From: Ktedonospora formicarum
GTDB lineage: Bacteria > Chloroflexota > Ktedonobacteria > Ktedonobacterales > Ktedonobacteraceae
Assembly (NCBI RefSeq): GCF_016587355.1
Contig: NZ_BNJF01000003.1
Location: 496,001 to 560,000, forward strand
DNA: 64,000 nucleotides
Direction: 5' to 3'
Under the pieces are notes generated by a model. The model saw nothing but the letters and a program-made list of their open reading frames with translations, was not told where the DNA came from and did not search any database. Position numbers and translations under genes: made by a program. Positions within the stretch are counted from its first letter, which is position 1. Each line of letters opens with the position of its first letter. Shown piece by piece: positions 19,216-25,953 of this stretch.

Positions 19216-19252
19216 GATCTAGACACAAAGCGCCATGCACAGGAGAGATGGG

Positions 19253-20899
19253 ATGAAGAAGCGTCAGGCAGCAAACGACCACACACAAGCACCCACCATA
19301 CGTACGCCCACATTTCTGCTGGAACTGTCCCTCGTGGTGAACCAGGGGCAGGCTAAGCGCCTGCGTGCCCATCTGGAAGCGGCCCGACAACTCTACAATG
19401 CTCTTCTCTCCCTGGGGCAACAGCGCCTGCGCCGCATGCGCGCTGATCCTGCCTGGCAGGAGGCCCGCACTCTTCCCCGCACCCACAAGGCGGAACGAGC
19501 GGTGGCGTTCTCCGACTTGCGCAAAGCCCATGGCTTTACCGAGGCGGCCTTGCATCAAGCGGTCAAAGGCTTGCGCGTTGGGTGGATTGCCGAGCACATT
19601 GAAGCGGTGCTGGCGCAAACGCTGTCGAGCCGCGCCTACCGTGCCCTCAATCGCGTCTGCCTGGGCCACGCCAGGCGAGTCCGGTTCAAGAGCCGAGGGC
19701 GAGGCTGCTCCAGCATCGAGAACAAGCGCAATGACACTGGCCTGCGCTTTGTCCTGCAGCCACCCGAGGAGGGAAACGCAGGGTTCCTGCTCTGGAACGG
19801 GGACCAGTTGCCAGCCCTCATCGATTGGCAGGACGAAGTGGTGGCTCATGGCCTGAGACATCGCATCAAGTATGCCCGCCTCATCCAACGTCCTGCCAGC
19901 AGTTCCAGAGCGGCTGGTGCCGATGCCAAGAGCAACCGCTACTGTGTGCAACTCATCCTGGAAGGCACCCCTTACCGTAAACCCAAGCACACGGTGAGTC
20001 AAGGAGTCGTTGGCGCTGATCTGGGTCCCTCGACTCTGGCGCTCGTTCCTCAGGAAGGGGAGGCAAGCCTGCAGGTGTTCTGTGCGGAACTGGTACCTGA
20101 TGAGAGAGCCATTCGTCGTCTGCAGCGTCAGATGGATCGACAAAGACGAGCAGGCAATCCGGAGTACTACGACGAGAAGGGACGCATCAGGAAGCAGGGC
20201 AAACAGAAGCGACAGTGGAAACAGAGCAAGCGCTACCAGGCGACGCGACGACGCAAGGCGAGCAAAGAACGCAAGTTGGCGGCGTATCGAAAGAGCCTGC
20301 ATGGCCATAAGGTGCATGAGGTGCTTACACAGGGTAATACCATCATCCTCGAAAAGATTTCCTACAAGGCATGGCAAAAGCAATTTGGCACGAGTGTGGG
20401 TCTGCGAGCCCCCGGGATGTTTGTAGCACTGTTGAAACGCACCGCCGTGCCCCCTTTGGGGGTTGTAAGCACGGGCGGCACCCTGGTGGAAGTTCCCACA
20501 CGCACCACGGCACTGAGCCAGTGGTGTCATGGCTGTGGCAAGCGGGTGAAGAAACCGCTCTCAGAGCGCTGGCACCAGTGCGAGTGTGGTGTGGGTCCTG
20601 TGCAACGTGACCTCTATTCGGCGTTTCTGGCTGCCTATCTTGATCCAGCAGACCCCATTCCCTCGTGTGCCCAATACCAGCCGTATTGGGAAGGTGCGGA
20701 AGCGCGCCTGCGGGCAGCACACGAGTGCCTCATCCAACGTGCGAAAGAGGGGCAGGATCTGCCCCGAAGCTTGGGTCTGACTCGAGCCAGAGTGCGTCTG
20801 CCCAAAAGTTCAGAGGAACCTCCATTAGAGCCAATTCTTCTCCTTGAGGGAGAAGAATTGGAAGCGTGGGCTGAACCCCTGGAACCTCCGCTGTTTTAG
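19253..20899 (+). CDS. tnpB: Long TnpB-like RNA-guided nuclease / IS605-type accessory protein
   Basis: A 548-residue protein; AGGAG 9 nt upstream supports the ATG at 19253 rather than 19235. RuvC-type catalytic residues are all present: Asp256 (VVGADLGPSTLAL), Glu367 (TIILEKISYKAW) and Asp453 (VQRDLYSAFLAAYL). The four-Cys zinc finger is WCHGCG...QCECG (from Cys425). TnpB proteins are guide-RNA-directed DNA nucleases encoded in IS200/IS605-like elements. At 548 residues this is clearly longer than the usual 350-420: there is a basic insert (about 290-345, many R/K/Q) and a 95-residue tail after the last Asp. No tnpA is adjacent. Confidence 0.85.
   Translation: MKKRQAANDHTQAPTIRTPTFLLELSLVVNQGQAKRLRAHLEAARQLYNALLSLGQQRLRRMRADPAWQEARTLPRTHKAERAVAFSDLRKAHGFTEAALHQAVKGLRVGWIAEHIEAVLAQTLSSRAYRALNRVCLGHARRVRFKSRGRGCSSIENKRNDTGLRFVLQPPEEGNAGFLLWNGDQLPALIDWQDEVVAHGLRHRIKYARLIQRPASSSRAAGADAKSNRYCVQLILEGTPYRKPKHTVSQGVVGADLGPSTLALVPQEGEASLQVFCAELVPDERAIRRLQRQMDRQRRAGNPEYYDEKGRIRKQGKQKRQWKQSKRYQATRRRKASKERKLAAYRKSLHGHKVHEVLTQGNTIILEKISYKAWQKQFGTSVGLRAPGMFVALLKRTAVPPLGVVSTGGTLVEVPTRTTALSQWCHGCGKRVKKPLSERWHQCECGVGPVQRDLYSAFLAAYLDPADPIPSCAQYQPYWEGAEARLRAAHECLIQRAKEGQDLPRSLGLTRARVRLPKSSEEPPLEPILLLEGEELEAWAEPLEPPLF
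20831..20861 (+). ncRNA. Strong hairpin inside the tnpB 3' end (guide-RNA scaffold candidate)
   Basis: CCAATTCTTCTCC (20831-20843) and GGAGAAGAATTGG (20849-20861) pair perfectly around TTGAG, within the coding sequence (residues PILLLEGEEL). TnpB guide RNAs usually overlap the 3' end of their own gene, so this may be part of the scaffold. A 3' boundary was not found by comparison, because only one copy of this tnpB end is in the window. Confidence 0.4.
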
Positions 20900-22674: not shown

Positions 22675-22724
22675 CCATTGCAAAAACCTTGCCTAATTTT
22701 CATTAGGCAAGATTTTTGCAATGG
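22675..22724. terminator. Bidirectional intrinsic terminator, 23-bp arms
   Basis: The arms 22675-22697 and 22702-22724 pair with a single mismatch around TTTC. The core is CTTGCCTAAT/ATTAGGCAAG with an A-tract before and a T-tract after, the classical layout working in both directions. Read leftwards it begins 14 nt after the stop codon at 22739-22741. It therefore fits the end of the metal operon only if the ArsC-like frame is read through the internal UGA. Confidence 0.75.
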
Positions 22725-22738
22725 ATTTCTTCCAAGGC

Positions 22739-23191
22739 TCATTTCCGAAGCGGAAGACCTCGACGAAGTGAGGGGAGAAAAAGCTCTAGATCGATATGGG
22801 AACGCAACGCATCACGAGCACTGCGATAACCAAGAAGCCGCTGTTCATCTCCAAGCTGAGTGGATGGGAGATCTTCTATGGCCCAGTAGCGATGCCGACC
22901 GGCACCTGGCACGATAGGTCAGGTATTCGCCAAACCACTGCAAAGAATGACTCCTTCATCCCAAGAAAGACCAAAGTTTGGTTCTGTCGTTTGTGATGAC
23001 GTGAGAAGCGGAATGTTCACCTCACCAAGGACTTGGCGAGCAAGATCTAGCTCATGGTCGTTACTCTGGAATGGCGTATTCCAAATATCCCACAGACCAT
23101 GTGCTCGTGCTGCAAGCAAACTTGCAGCCATGAGTGCACGGACTGAGCGATGGGCACAGAGAAACAACACTCGTTTTCGATGTTCACTCAT
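22739..23191 (-). CDS. ArsC-like arsenate reductase / LMW phosphatase fold with in-frame UGA (selenocysteine candidate)
   Basis: The first 90 codons carry the LMW-PTP/ArsC P-loop Cys12-x5-Arg18 (LFLCAHRSVRALMAASLL) and Cys84 (GVILCSGLANT). They end in UGA (22919-22921). The same frame then continues for 60 codons with PIVPGAGRHRYWAIEDLP and LGYRSARDALRSHIDLELF to a stop at 22739-22741. This is a good ArsC C-terminus (compare HWxFxDP and RVRDEI). The UGA is residue 91, seven after Cys84. In the Bacillus subtilis enzyme the redox pair Cys82/Cys89 has the same spacing, so UGA replaces the second redox Cys. Either Sec is inserted or a Cys codon mutated to stop. The P-loop is atypical (CAHRSVR rather than CTGNSCR), so arsenate specificity is uncertain. 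It is the third gene of a metal operon. Confidence 0.65.
22883..22909 (-). promoter_or_regulatory. SECIS-like hairpin downstream of the UGA in the ArsC-like gene
   Basis: On the message, 12 nt after the UGA, GGUGCC pairs with GGCAUC (one G-U) around the loop GGUC. An outer CCA/UGG pairing closes it with a 5-nt bulge. The apical loop starts 18 nt after the UGA and begins with GG. Known bacterial SECIS elements have a short stem whose loop carries a G in its first two positions, 16-37 nt after the UGA. The match is suggestive only, because short GC-rich hairpins are common. Confidence 0.4.
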
Positions 23192-23239: not shown

Positions 23240-25591
23240 TTAAACACGTTCCCTGTTATTCTGTAGCTTCTGCCCTGCTCTTAGCAATCGTGCTGAATTG
23301 GCAAGGATACCCAGATCGGGCAGTGATTGGGCAGCGGCAGCAAGAATCGGTGGAAGAACGCCAAAGGCAGCCAGTGAGAGGCCAACCACGTTGTAGAGGG
23401 CTGTAAAACCAATGTTCATCTTGACCACACGCATAGTTCGGTGCGCGATGGCAAAGACTTCTGGGACCAATCGCCAATCATTGCGCATGAGCGCCATATG
23501 AGCTGCATCCATTGCTACATCGGTTCCAGCCACTCCCATTGCCATGCCCACATCCGCTTGCGCCAACGCAGGCGCATCATTGACCCCATCGCCGACCATG
23601 ACGACGGTATGCCCTTTTGCCTGGTATTCTTTGACGAGGCGAATCTTGTCTTCGGGCAAGAGATTCGCCTGGTATCCAATGCCAAGTTGCTCGGCGAGAG
23701 CCGCTGCTACTTGTTCGTTGTCGCCTGTCAGCATTTCGATATGTTTGACTCCATACCGTCTAAGATGGGCGAGAGCTTCCGGCATTTCAGGACGCACAGT
23801 ATCTGAGGCTGCTAGCAGGCCGACGAGTTCGCCATCACGCTCGACAAACAACAGCGTCTTGCCTTGTGCTTCAAGAGCAGCAGTTTCAGCTTGATCGCGA
23901 CCGGAGGGAATGAGGCGTGTATTACCAACGGCAAGTTGACTGCCATCCACACAGACCCGTATCCCCTGGCCTGGAATGGCTTCAAACTGTTCTGCTGAAA
24001 GGAGAGGAAGACGGAGCTTCCTTGCTTTTTCCCGTACCGCTTCAGCGAGAGGATGTTCCGAATAGCGCTCGGCGCTGGCGGCAAGCTGTAAGACCTCGTT
24101 CTTGCCCATCTGGCTGGTCGCAATGACATCGGCAATCTGTGGCTCGCCCACGGTCACAGTCCCGGTTTTGTCTAGAAGGACTACATCGGCTCGTGCCAGC
24201 GTTTCCAGATACTTGCCACCCTTGATGAGCATGCCTCGTTTCGCAGCAGCTCCAATGGAGGCAAGCATAGCAACAGGGGTCGCCAGTGCCAGCGAGCAGG
24301 AGCAGGCAACCACCAGAACAGAAGCGGTTGCGAGTGGGTTTCGACTGATGAGGAGTGTCAGGGCTGCAATGGCAGCCACCACCGGGAGGAAGTAGGCAGA
24401 AAAACGATCTGCTAGGCGCTGCACGTCGGCACGGTGAGCTTCCGCCTCTTCAACCATCTTGATCACTCGTCCAAAGGTGGTATCAGCTCCCACGTGGGTC
24501 GTGCGAAGACGCAGACTCCCCAACGTGGCAATGGTGGCAGCATAGACCTGACTTCCTTCACTCACTTCAACGGGCATGGCTTCACCGGTGAGCGCAGCCT
24601 GGTTGATCGTGGCCTGTCCCATGAGCACCAGGCCATCAACCGGAATGGCTTCGCCTGGTCTGACAATCACGACCTCACCTGGTTGCACCTCACCGATAGG
24701 CACCTCGATTTCGTTCCCATCGCGCTCAAGGCGAGCTGTTTTGGGTGTCATCGAGGTCAGATGTTTGAGTGCATGTCGAGAACGCTCGGTGGTAAAGTTC
24801 TCCGCAAAATTGCCCACATGCATAAAGAAGACCACGACCGCAGCCGTGGGCCATTGTCCCACGACGAGGGCAGCCACGACCCCAAGGCTCATCAGCGTAT
24901 GAGAAATCACCTGACGACGCAGAGCGGCTTTGATGACATTCAGAAAAATGGGAGATCCAGCAAGCAGGACAAGTGCCCAGCCGACGTACCAGGGAATCAG
25001 GTCGGTGACCCGTTTCATCCAGCCCAACCACTCGCCAACAATCACGACTAGGAGCACGATGCCCAATACCAGAGCAAAAAGCGTGAGAATGGGACGGGTG
25101 AAGGAGCCAAGCGAAGGAAAAGCAGATATTTCCTCTTGTGCTGTTCCCTCTGAGTCAATGGAATACCCTGCTTTCTCGACCGCCTGATGAAAGGCAGAAA
25201 AATCAATCTGGGTAGGATCGTAACGGATCAGAGCTTTCTCTGATGAGAGATAGACCTGAGCCTCTTCGACGCCTCGCAATCCCGCTAGCGCGTGCTGCAC
25301 ATGTTCTGTGCATTCGGTACAATCCATCCCGGCGATTTTCAGCTCAACTGTGCGTAAGGGAAGCGAAAGGATGTATCCAGCCCCCTCCACTGCTTTGCGA
25401 AAAGTACTCATATCTACCTGAACCGGATCGTAGCGCACGACGGCTTTCTCAGAGGAAAGGTAAACCTGCGCTTGCTCGACTCCAGGAAGTGCGCAGAGCG
25501 CCTGTTGCACATGCTGGGTACACTCGGTGCAATCCATCCCCGAGATCGGGAGTTCTATTGTGCGTAGAGCATCAGGAGTTGCATTCGTCAC
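23240..25591 (-). CDS. Heavy-metal P1B-type ATPase with two HMA domains and a CSC motif
   Basis: A 783-residue efflux pump. Two tandem metal-binding domains carry GMDCTEC (Cys21/24 and Cys91/94). The ATPase core has LTGEAMP, the phosphorylated Asp474 (LLDKTGTVTVGEP), the HP motif (YSEHPLAEAV) and GDGVNDAPALAQADVGMAMG. The transmembrane metal site reads ACSCSLALATP: Cys430-Ser431-Cys432 instead of the usual CPC. The last TM pair has ALYNVVGLSLA and SLPDLGILANSARLL, which does not fit cleanly with Cu or Zn/Cd pumps. The start is GTG at 25591, overlapping the ArsR stop by GTGA, so translation is coupled. The CmtR-like regulator suggests Cd/Pb/Zn. Confidence 0.93.
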   Translation of the reverse strand: MTNATPDALRTIELPISGMDCTECTQHVQQALCALPGVEQAQVYLSSEKAVVRYDPVQVDMSTFRKAVEGAGYILSLPLRTVELKIAGMDCTECTEHVQHALAGLRGVEEAQVYLSSEKALIRYDPTQIDFSAFHQAVEKAGYSIDSEGTAQEEISAFPSLGSFTRPILTLFALVLGIVLLVVIVGEWLGWMKRVTDLIPWYVGWALVLLAGSPIFLNVIKAALRRQVISHTLMSLGVVAALVVGQWPTAAVVVFFMHVGNFAENFTTERSRHALKHLTSMTPKTARLERDGNEIEVPIGEVQPGEVVIVRPGEAIPVDGLVLMGQATINQAALTGEAMPVEVSEGSQVYAATIATLGSLRLRTTHVGADTTFGRVIKMVEEAEAHRADVQRLADRFSAYFLPVVAAIAALTLLISRNPLATASVLVVACSCSLALATPVAMLASIGAAAKRGMLIKGGKYLETLARADVVLLDKTGTVTVGEPQIADVIATSQMGKNEVLQLAASAERYSEHPLAEAVREKARKLRLPLLSAEQFEAIPGQGIRVCVDGSQLAVGNTRLIPSGRDQAETAALEAQGKTLLFVERDGELVGLLAASDTVRPEMPEALAHLRRYGVKHIEMLTGDNEQVAAALAEQLGIGYQANLLPEDKIRLVKEYQAKGHTVVMVGDGVNDAPALAQADVGMAMGVAGTDVAMDAAHMALMRNDWRLVPEVFAIAHRTMRVVKMNIGFTALYNVVGLSLAAFGVLPPILAAAAQSLPDLGILANSARLLRAGQKLQNNRERV

Positions 25592-25953
25592 AGTTCGCTC
25601 TTTTCTCCGTCAACGCGCGGATGTTCTTCTGTGTAGTTGGCGCATTCGTAAATGCCGCGCGCAATGTCCTGTAAGATTTCTTCCGTCAAGGAGAACAGCA
25701 CAGCAATTTTGGGGTGGCTCAATTGGTAAAAGGTGTAACGTCCTTGCGACTCAGAAGTCACGAGGTCACAGTCAGATAAACAGCGTAAATGGTTGGAGAC
25801 ATTGGTCCGTAACAAGCCAGTTTGCTCTACAATAGCACTGACCGTCAGAGGGCCTGCGCGCAGTGCTTCAAGAATGGAGAGGCGTGAAGGATCAGCAAAT
25901 CCACGATACAGCTTTGCTTTGAGGGTGAGGGCTTGCGCTTGGAGTGTTGGCAT
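25588..25953 (-). CDS. ArsR/SmtB-family metal sensor, CmtR-like
   Basis: A 121-residue winged-helix repressor (LSILEALRAGPLTVSAIVEQ, TGLLRTNVSNHLRCLSDCDL). The recognition helix carries Cys58 and Cys62 (SNHLRCLSDC), and Cys104 lies in IYECANYTEE. CmtR, the Cd(II)/Pb(II) sensor of Mycobacterium, uses Cys57, Cys61 and Cys102, so all three ligands are matched in place. It should release DNA on binding soft divalent metals. It is the first gene of the operon with the P-type ATPase (4-nt overlap) and the ArsC-like protein. An operator-like palindrome lies at 25988-26002. Confidence 0.9.
   Translation of the reverse strand: MPTLQAQALTLKAKLYRGFADPSRLSILEALRAGPLTVSAIVEQTGLLRTNVSNHLRCLSDCDLVTSESQGRYTFYQLSHPKIAVLFSLTEEILQDIARGIYECANYTEEHPRVDGEKSEL

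Follow-up and report, generated by a model that had tools for sequence, protein, structure and literature searches.

The arsenate reductases of the ArsC type from Bacillus subtilis and Staphylococcus aureus operate through a relay of Cys10, Cys82 and Cys89. At the end of the relay a disulfide between Cys82 and Cys89 is exposed, of which Cys89 is attacked by Cys29 of thioredoxin (PMC2714181). In Thermus, an ArsC is accompanied by a P1B ATPase that exports As(III) (PMC8949286). Arsenate reductases with selenocysteine (Sec) have also been described; these carry a UxxS or UxxC motif and belong to the thioredoxin-like COG1393 (PMC1088965, PMC2398784, PMC9312934, PMC13188914). Among the 119 families and subfamilies of prokaryotic selenoproteins covered by a 2026 review, the only arsenate reductases listed are of the COG1393 type (PMC13188914). 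The text of the review contains no member with the LMW-phosphatase fold and mentions neither 'phosphatase' nor TIGR02691, and no Sec-containing ArsC of the LMW-phosphatase fold was found in the open-licence literature searched.

The window analysed here, a stretch of 64,000 nucleotides from Ktedonospora formicarum, contains an ArsC-like gene interrupted by an in-frame UGA and designated ArsC-U. Its frame on the minus strand (23191-22739) starts with ATG and runs over 90 codons to the UGA, followed by 59 codons and a stop at 22741-22739. The features of the gene are as follows.

22739..23191, minus strand: ArsC-like predicted selenoprotein gene (ArsC-U), 150 codons plus stop, based on the frame, NCBIfam, orthologues and PDB profile
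23156..23158, minus strand: codon of Cys12, the nucleophile of the CX5R P-loop (CAHRSVR), present in 4/4 orthologues and aligned with ArsC Cys10
22940..22942, minus strand: codon of Cys84, first relay cysteine, present in 4/4 orthologues and aligned with ArsC Cys82
22919..22921, minus strand: in-frame UGA, codon 91, predicted Sec, in the column of ArsC Cys89 according to the orthologues and the 1jl3 alignment

Upon reading through the UGA, the protein was matched weakly to the NCBIfam model TIGR02691 (thioredoxin-type ArsC; E=5e-9), over residues 8-133 and thus spanning the UGA. The score of 36.4 bits lies below the curated cut-off of 174.3 bits, which is strict since the canonical ArsC beside ACR3 in the same genome reaches only 138 bits. 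The read-through protein had no Pfam match, and a family-model search gave no match to COG1393, TIGR00014 or NF041106. A PDB profile search with a four-row profile of ArsC-U and its relatives retrieved ArsC chains, with D. indicus ArsC2 (8p5n) and B. subtilis ArsC (1jl3) as best matches. In the 1jl3 alignment, C12 is paired with Cys10, C84 with Cys82 and U91 with Cys89 of the B. subtilis enzyme, the spacing between Cys84 and the UGA being seven codons. A structure model based on the four sequences was of moderate confidence (pLDDT 75) and had ArsC structures as its best matches. C12-X5-R18 is invariant across the four orthologues and the W-x3-D/E acid position is retained as well. The Asn of the P-loop and the Ser/Thr after the Arg are absent (CAHRSVRA versus the canonical CTHNSARS); the relatives carry the variants CARRSVRA, CAQHSVRE and CAHRSIRE.

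An earlier note on this locus, made from the sequence alone, had described an ArsC-like frame at 22739-23191 with a UGA at 22919-22921 after 90 codons and a family-like continuation, in which the UGA, seven codons after Cys84, replaces the second relay cysteine (Cys89 of B. subtilis ArsC). Both statements held, the latter by the 1jl3 alignment. Its caution about the P-loop (CAHRSVR) was justified, the substrate being uncertain.

Forty-seven genomes of the host class were searched, and three besides the window genome contained an ArsC-U gene, each with one in-frame TGA: Ktedonobacter robiniae SOSP1-30 (G033), which is assigned to the same genus as the window genome, Dictyobacter kobayashii Uno11 (G025) and a Ktedonobacterales MAG (G021). 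Their proteins are 47-55% identical to that of the window. All four are exactly 150 aa long, with the UGA at codon 91 and an intact frame beyond it, and C12, C84 and U91 are the only Cys or Sec residues in each. In an alignment with about 17 canonical ArsCs of the class, the UGA column is occupied by Cys. The same-codon UGA with intact frames behind it in four orthologues is not a matter of chance, and it cannot be put down to a sequencing error since independent assemblies carry the same codon.

Pairwise synonymous differences among the four genes amount to 0.60-0.93 per site, which is close to saturation. Nonsynonymous differences behind the UGA are limited to 0.22-0.46 (dN 0.26-0.70, well below dS). 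The tail is therefore selected as protein. Identity between the window protein and its relatives is lower after the UGA (36-46%) than before it (54-61%).

Among 400 Chloroflexota genomes, the four ArsC-U proteins scored 255-270 bits and the next-best match 84 bits, and none of the next-best matches inspected had a UGA at the place of codon 91. When 84,980 species were searched for patterns from the four-row alignment, only the same three relatives were returned; this search relied on exact peptide stretches, by which distant members would be missed. The single-sequence pattern search of 84,980 genomes gave no match, and no ArsC-U was found on plasmids by tblastn. In the phylogeny, a fully supported branch, about 2.2 substitutions per site in length, separates the Sec clade from the other sequences. 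Four entries flagged as having stops inside (L019, L066, G140 and G083) were rejected, as these are natural C-terminal stops and not Sec codons.

Two further candidates were rejected as family members, being decayed C-terminal remnants. One (L081 1367-1525) is what is left of a second copy in the window genome, covering residues about 97-150 with a TAG and lying in frame behind an unrelated ORF. The other (L082 1177-1377), in a Dictyobacter-group genome, also has a TAG, and its SECIS sequence is still readable. Based on these two remnants, ArsC-U is dispensable and easily gained and lost; the window copy and the three others are intact.

The window genome encodes SelA, SelD, a full-length SelB of 679 aa and a tRNA-Sec with UCA anticodon, the latter scoring 68 bits against a cut-off of 47. 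SelA and SelD were also found in the ArsC-U relatives. SelA was present in 8/8 Ktedonobacteraceae genomes tested, including ones without ArsC-U, and ArsC-U is therefore not the reason for the existence of the Sec machinery. A second selenoprotein candidate of the window genome is a formate-dehydrogenase-like gene (L088; G000:C1:4091554-4092309, minus strand) with an in-frame TGA in the context ARIUHSST and a SECIS with a GGUCU loop. A scan of the window genome for AhpC/Prx proteins revealed no in-frame TGA.

In the selD gene of the window genome (L011 around 2390-2535; G000:C3 near 989245), the reading frame is left in a G4 run, some 40-45 codons short of the usual end. What follows in the abandoned frame still resembles the family throughout, the catalytic N-terminal portion is unaffected and the relatives have intact selD genes. 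Either the mutation happened very recently or the sequence contains an error. In the Ktedonobacterales MAG (L118, G021:C347:906-1832), SelD itself has a UGA at the active-site CAGC position (CAGU), where SelD of the same-genus genomes has Cys.

Downstream of the UGA, a candidate for the core of a bacterial SECIS element was located, based on conservation and likeness to fdhF.

22892..22905, minus strand: candidate bacterial SECIS core, 5-bp stem with a GGUC apical loop at 22900-22897 (+19..+22 after the UGA)

The nucleotide stretch GGTCGGC is common to the four ArsC-U genes, and in 4/4 of them GGUC at +19..+22 closes a 5-bp stem. The cells of the paired positions are standard in 20/20 cases over the four genes, with one U-A/C-G exchange and three G-U variants, and slid versions of the alignment are paired for 20-60% only. 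The argument for the hairpin rests on this slid control and on the analysis of background and synonymous recoding, as a shuffle control is uninformative with four sequences. The arrangement of GGTC and a 5-bp stem occurs at 4e-5 of positions in 316 kb of the window genome, and in its strict form it follows one of the 5,713 TGAs there, that of ArsC-U itself. The formate dehydrogenase falls outside this strict form by its loop of 5 nt (GGUCU). Given the peptide and the codon usage, synonymous recoding yields the hairpin with a probability of 0.002-0.007 per gene. The hairpin of the window (loop GGUC, stem of 5-6 bp, 18 nt downstream, -9.0 to -12.2 kcal/mol) fits the bSECIS model (PMC13188914). 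In the other genes, the energy is borderline for L015, and L016 has a weak stem (-4.7 kcal/mol). The GGUC loop at +19 to +22 is shared with the SECIS of E. coli fdhF, of which the sequence was checked against genomes, and the GGUC of the formate dehydrogenase of the window genome lies at exactly +19 to +22 as well. The fdhF element differs from that of ArsC-U by its bulged U and its longer lower stem, neither being conserved in the four genes, and no conserved lower stem was found among the four hairpins.

These results bear on the remaining claims of the earlier note, which had inferred selenocysteine at the UGA. That inference is supported by the machinery, the conservation of the UGA and the SECIS hairpin, although incorporation itself remains inferred. 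The search of the genome for Sec machinery that it had named turned up SelA, SelB, SelD and tRNA-Sec(UCA). In the alignment of homologues it had proposed, the closest relatives all have UGA followed by sequence under purifying selection, and the canonical ArsCs have Cys. A misread TGC or TGT, which would have refuted the claim, is not the explanation.

Upstream of ArsC-U, genes for a transporter and a regulator were located, and an inverted repeat follows the gene.

23240..25591, minus strand: P1B-type heavy-metal ATPase with two HMA domains, the CPC of the membrane motif being replaced by CSC; immediately upstream of ArsC-U
25588..25953, minus strand: ArsR/SmtB-type metalloregulator (CmtR-like), overlapping the ATPase start by 4 bp, identified by family matches
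about 22675-22724, minus strand: long inverted repeat, single-copy in the genome, starting about 15 nt after the ArsC-U stop

The ATPase gene and ArsC-U probably belong to the same operon, with the inverted repeat at 22675..22724 as its likely, bidirectional, terminator. The earlier note had placed the stop some 14 nt before a strong bidirectional terminator; the position held, and the role as terminator is probable. An Rfam search gave chance matches only, nearly all on the terminator hairpin. In a same-genus genome (G032), an orthologue of the ATPase (L111, 82%) lies with the regulator in a cluster of ArsR, CDF, ATPase, ArsC, ArsR, ArsA and aquaporin genes, in which canonical arsC, arsR, the ArsA-like genes and aquaporin are on one strand with the ATPase and regulator. 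By this position of the orthologues, the regulator/ATPase pair is tied to arsenic. There was no trace of ArsC-U behind the 82% orthologue or behind the 85% paralogue in the window genome. The neighbours of ArsC-U are not conserved across the four loci: CDF transporters are found at the K. robiniae locus and unrelated genes in the other two relatives. Canonical ArsCs are present elsewhere in the window genome, in an arsC-arsR-acr3 cluster (L085) and in a cluster of an ArsR-ArsC fusion, an aquaporin and arsC (L086).

Some further observations were made on these neighbourhoods. The CSC for the usual CPC also occurs in the 85% paralogue (L112) and the 82% orthologue of the ATPase. The substrate of the P1B-7 subgroup is given as unknown in a review; membership of the window ATPase in P1B-7 has not been established. 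The ArsR-ArsC fusion protein (L086 1640-2449) adjoins the aquaporin and the further ArsC. Two adjacent ArsA-like frames lie between aquaporin and arsR in L111 (1514-3018), one of them matched to PF02374 and one looking truncated or frameshifted. At 19235-20899 of the window, an ORF of 554 aa has a TnpB-type look by eye (zinc-finger-like CHGCG...CECG) and gave no match to Pfam at E 1e-5.

Other readings of the locus can be weighed against that of a selenium-containing arsenate reductase, and the most serious of them leaves the selenocysteine in place. ArsC-U may be a selenoprotein that has kept the three-chalcogen relay and lost the arsenate-binding loop, and may now work as a different Sec oxidoreductase, as a reductase for an oxyanion other than arsenate or as a thiol-redox protein responding to metals. 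The atypical P-loop without Asn and Ser/Thr, the long branch, the canonical ArsCs in the same genome (one with ACR3) and the exporters of the P1B or CDF metal-cation type, not ACR3, at two of the loci speak for this. Against it, the C, the X5 spacing and the R are retained, as are the acid position of W-x3-D/E and the two relay positions, and the ATPase orthologue lies within an arsenic cluster of a same-genus genome. On balance we rank this reading slightly behind arsenate reduction. A selenium switch, with a 90-residue product having a role of its own without selenium and the 150-residue enzyme with it, is very improbable. Any Sec UGA can terminate under selenium shortage, but a product of 90 residues would end before the final strand and the long C-terminal helix of the modelled fold, and nothing specific supports a role for it.

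The two readings without selenium can practically be dismissed. As a pseudogene, ArsC-U would have suffered an ordinary nonsense mutation at the relay cysteine with the tail still recognisable; the earlier note had advised caution because of pseudogenes nearby, and decayed remnants of the family do exist in the window genome and a Dictyobacter genome. This reading is contradicted by the finding that four species, whose synonymous sites are saturated, share the UGA at one and the same codon, keep intact frames of 150 codons and show a dN much lower than dS in the part behind the UGA, as well as by the SECIS hairpin and the Sec machinery. Alternatively, the UGA could be read as another amino acid, as Cys by an unusual suppressor tRNA or as Trp by near-cognate read-through, and the canonical homologues do have Cys at this position. 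The UCA tRNA, however, scores well above the cut-off as tRNA-Sec, SelA, SelB and SelD are present, and the hairpin corresponds to the one behind the Sec codon of the formate dehydrogenase, leaving next to no room for this alternative.

The preferred reading is that ArsC-U is probably a divergent selenoprotein of 150 residues, an ArsC of the thioredoxin-coupled type with the LMW-phosphatase fold and Sec at UGA91; there are no expression or selenium data. The frame, the conserved UGA, the Sec machinery, a SECIS candidate and the homology with ArsC are shown directly; the parts that are inferred differ in confidence. Incorporation of Sec at UGA91 is considered very likely and use of this Sec in the relay likely. 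Arsenate as main substrate is favoured by a small margin only, its reduction not having been shown, and the substrate may differ because of the atypical P-loop and the position of the clade on the branch of about 2.2 substitutions per site.

According to the proposed mechanism, the GGUC hairpin, 18 nt downstream, would guide SelB, through which UGA91 would be read as selenocysteine. By analogy with the B. subtilis and S. aureus enzymes, C12 in the CX5R loop would attack the oxyanion, most likely arsenate, and C84 would resolve the C12 adduct with release of the reduced product. An attack of U91 on C84 would follow and leave an S-Se bond exposed, which thioredoxin may open by attacking U91, again by analogy. 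Selenium would thus sit at the residue passing electrons in from thioredoxin. Such a position is the customary one for selenium to be of benefit, and in selenoenzymes it is generally associated with a lower pKa, faster exchange and reversible over-oxidation. Placed at the end of the relay, Sec may make the exchange faster and over-oxidation easier to reverse. The operon as a whole, with its ArsR-type sensor, P1B ATPase and ArsC-U, would sense, reduce and export the metalloid.

ArsC-U is likely to represent a new selenoprotein family, the Sec form of the thioredoxin-coupled ArsC. A bolder reading, also held to be likely, is that of a family confined to the Ktedonobacterales, consisting of thioredoxin-coupled reductases of arsenate or another oxyanion with the LMW-phosphatase fold, with Sec as terminal relay residue and without a known Cys orthologue. 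We infer that annotation pipelines probably call such genes as fragments of 90 residues, leaving the family under-recorded. If the reading is true, ArsC-U would be the first enzyme of the LMW-phosphatase fold to contain selenium, and it would add a fold to the selenoproteome. The ArsC relay is among the best-studied thiol cascades, with structures for several of its steps, and a natural Sec at one of its three positions would allow a direct test of the benefit of selenium, in the speed of exchange with thioredoxin, the direction of attack and the rescue from over-oxidation.

Upon comparison with known systems, the Thermus thermophilus proteins TtSmtB, TtArsX and TtArsC resemble the ArsC-U operon in combining an ArsR/SmtB regulator, a P1B ATPase and an ArsC of the LMW-phosphatase fold in one resistance system (PMC8949286), but TtArsC has Cys82 and Cys89 and no selenium. 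The known Sec arsenate reductases (COG1393 / pfam03960 / TIGR00014 / NF041106) share with ArsC-U the annotation as arsenate reductase and a predicted redox-active Sec. They differ in fold, and in ArsC-U the Sec would be the last residue of the relay. The closest relation is with the pI258 / B. subtilis-type ArsC (TIGR02691; 1jl3, 1ljl, 8p5n), with which the fold, the CX5R motif, the redox spacing and W-x3-D/E are shared. In these enzymes the third redox residue is Cys, whereas in ArsC-U it is predicted to be Sec, the Asn and Ser of the P-loop are replaced and the C-terminus is extended by a tail of about 10-20 residues.
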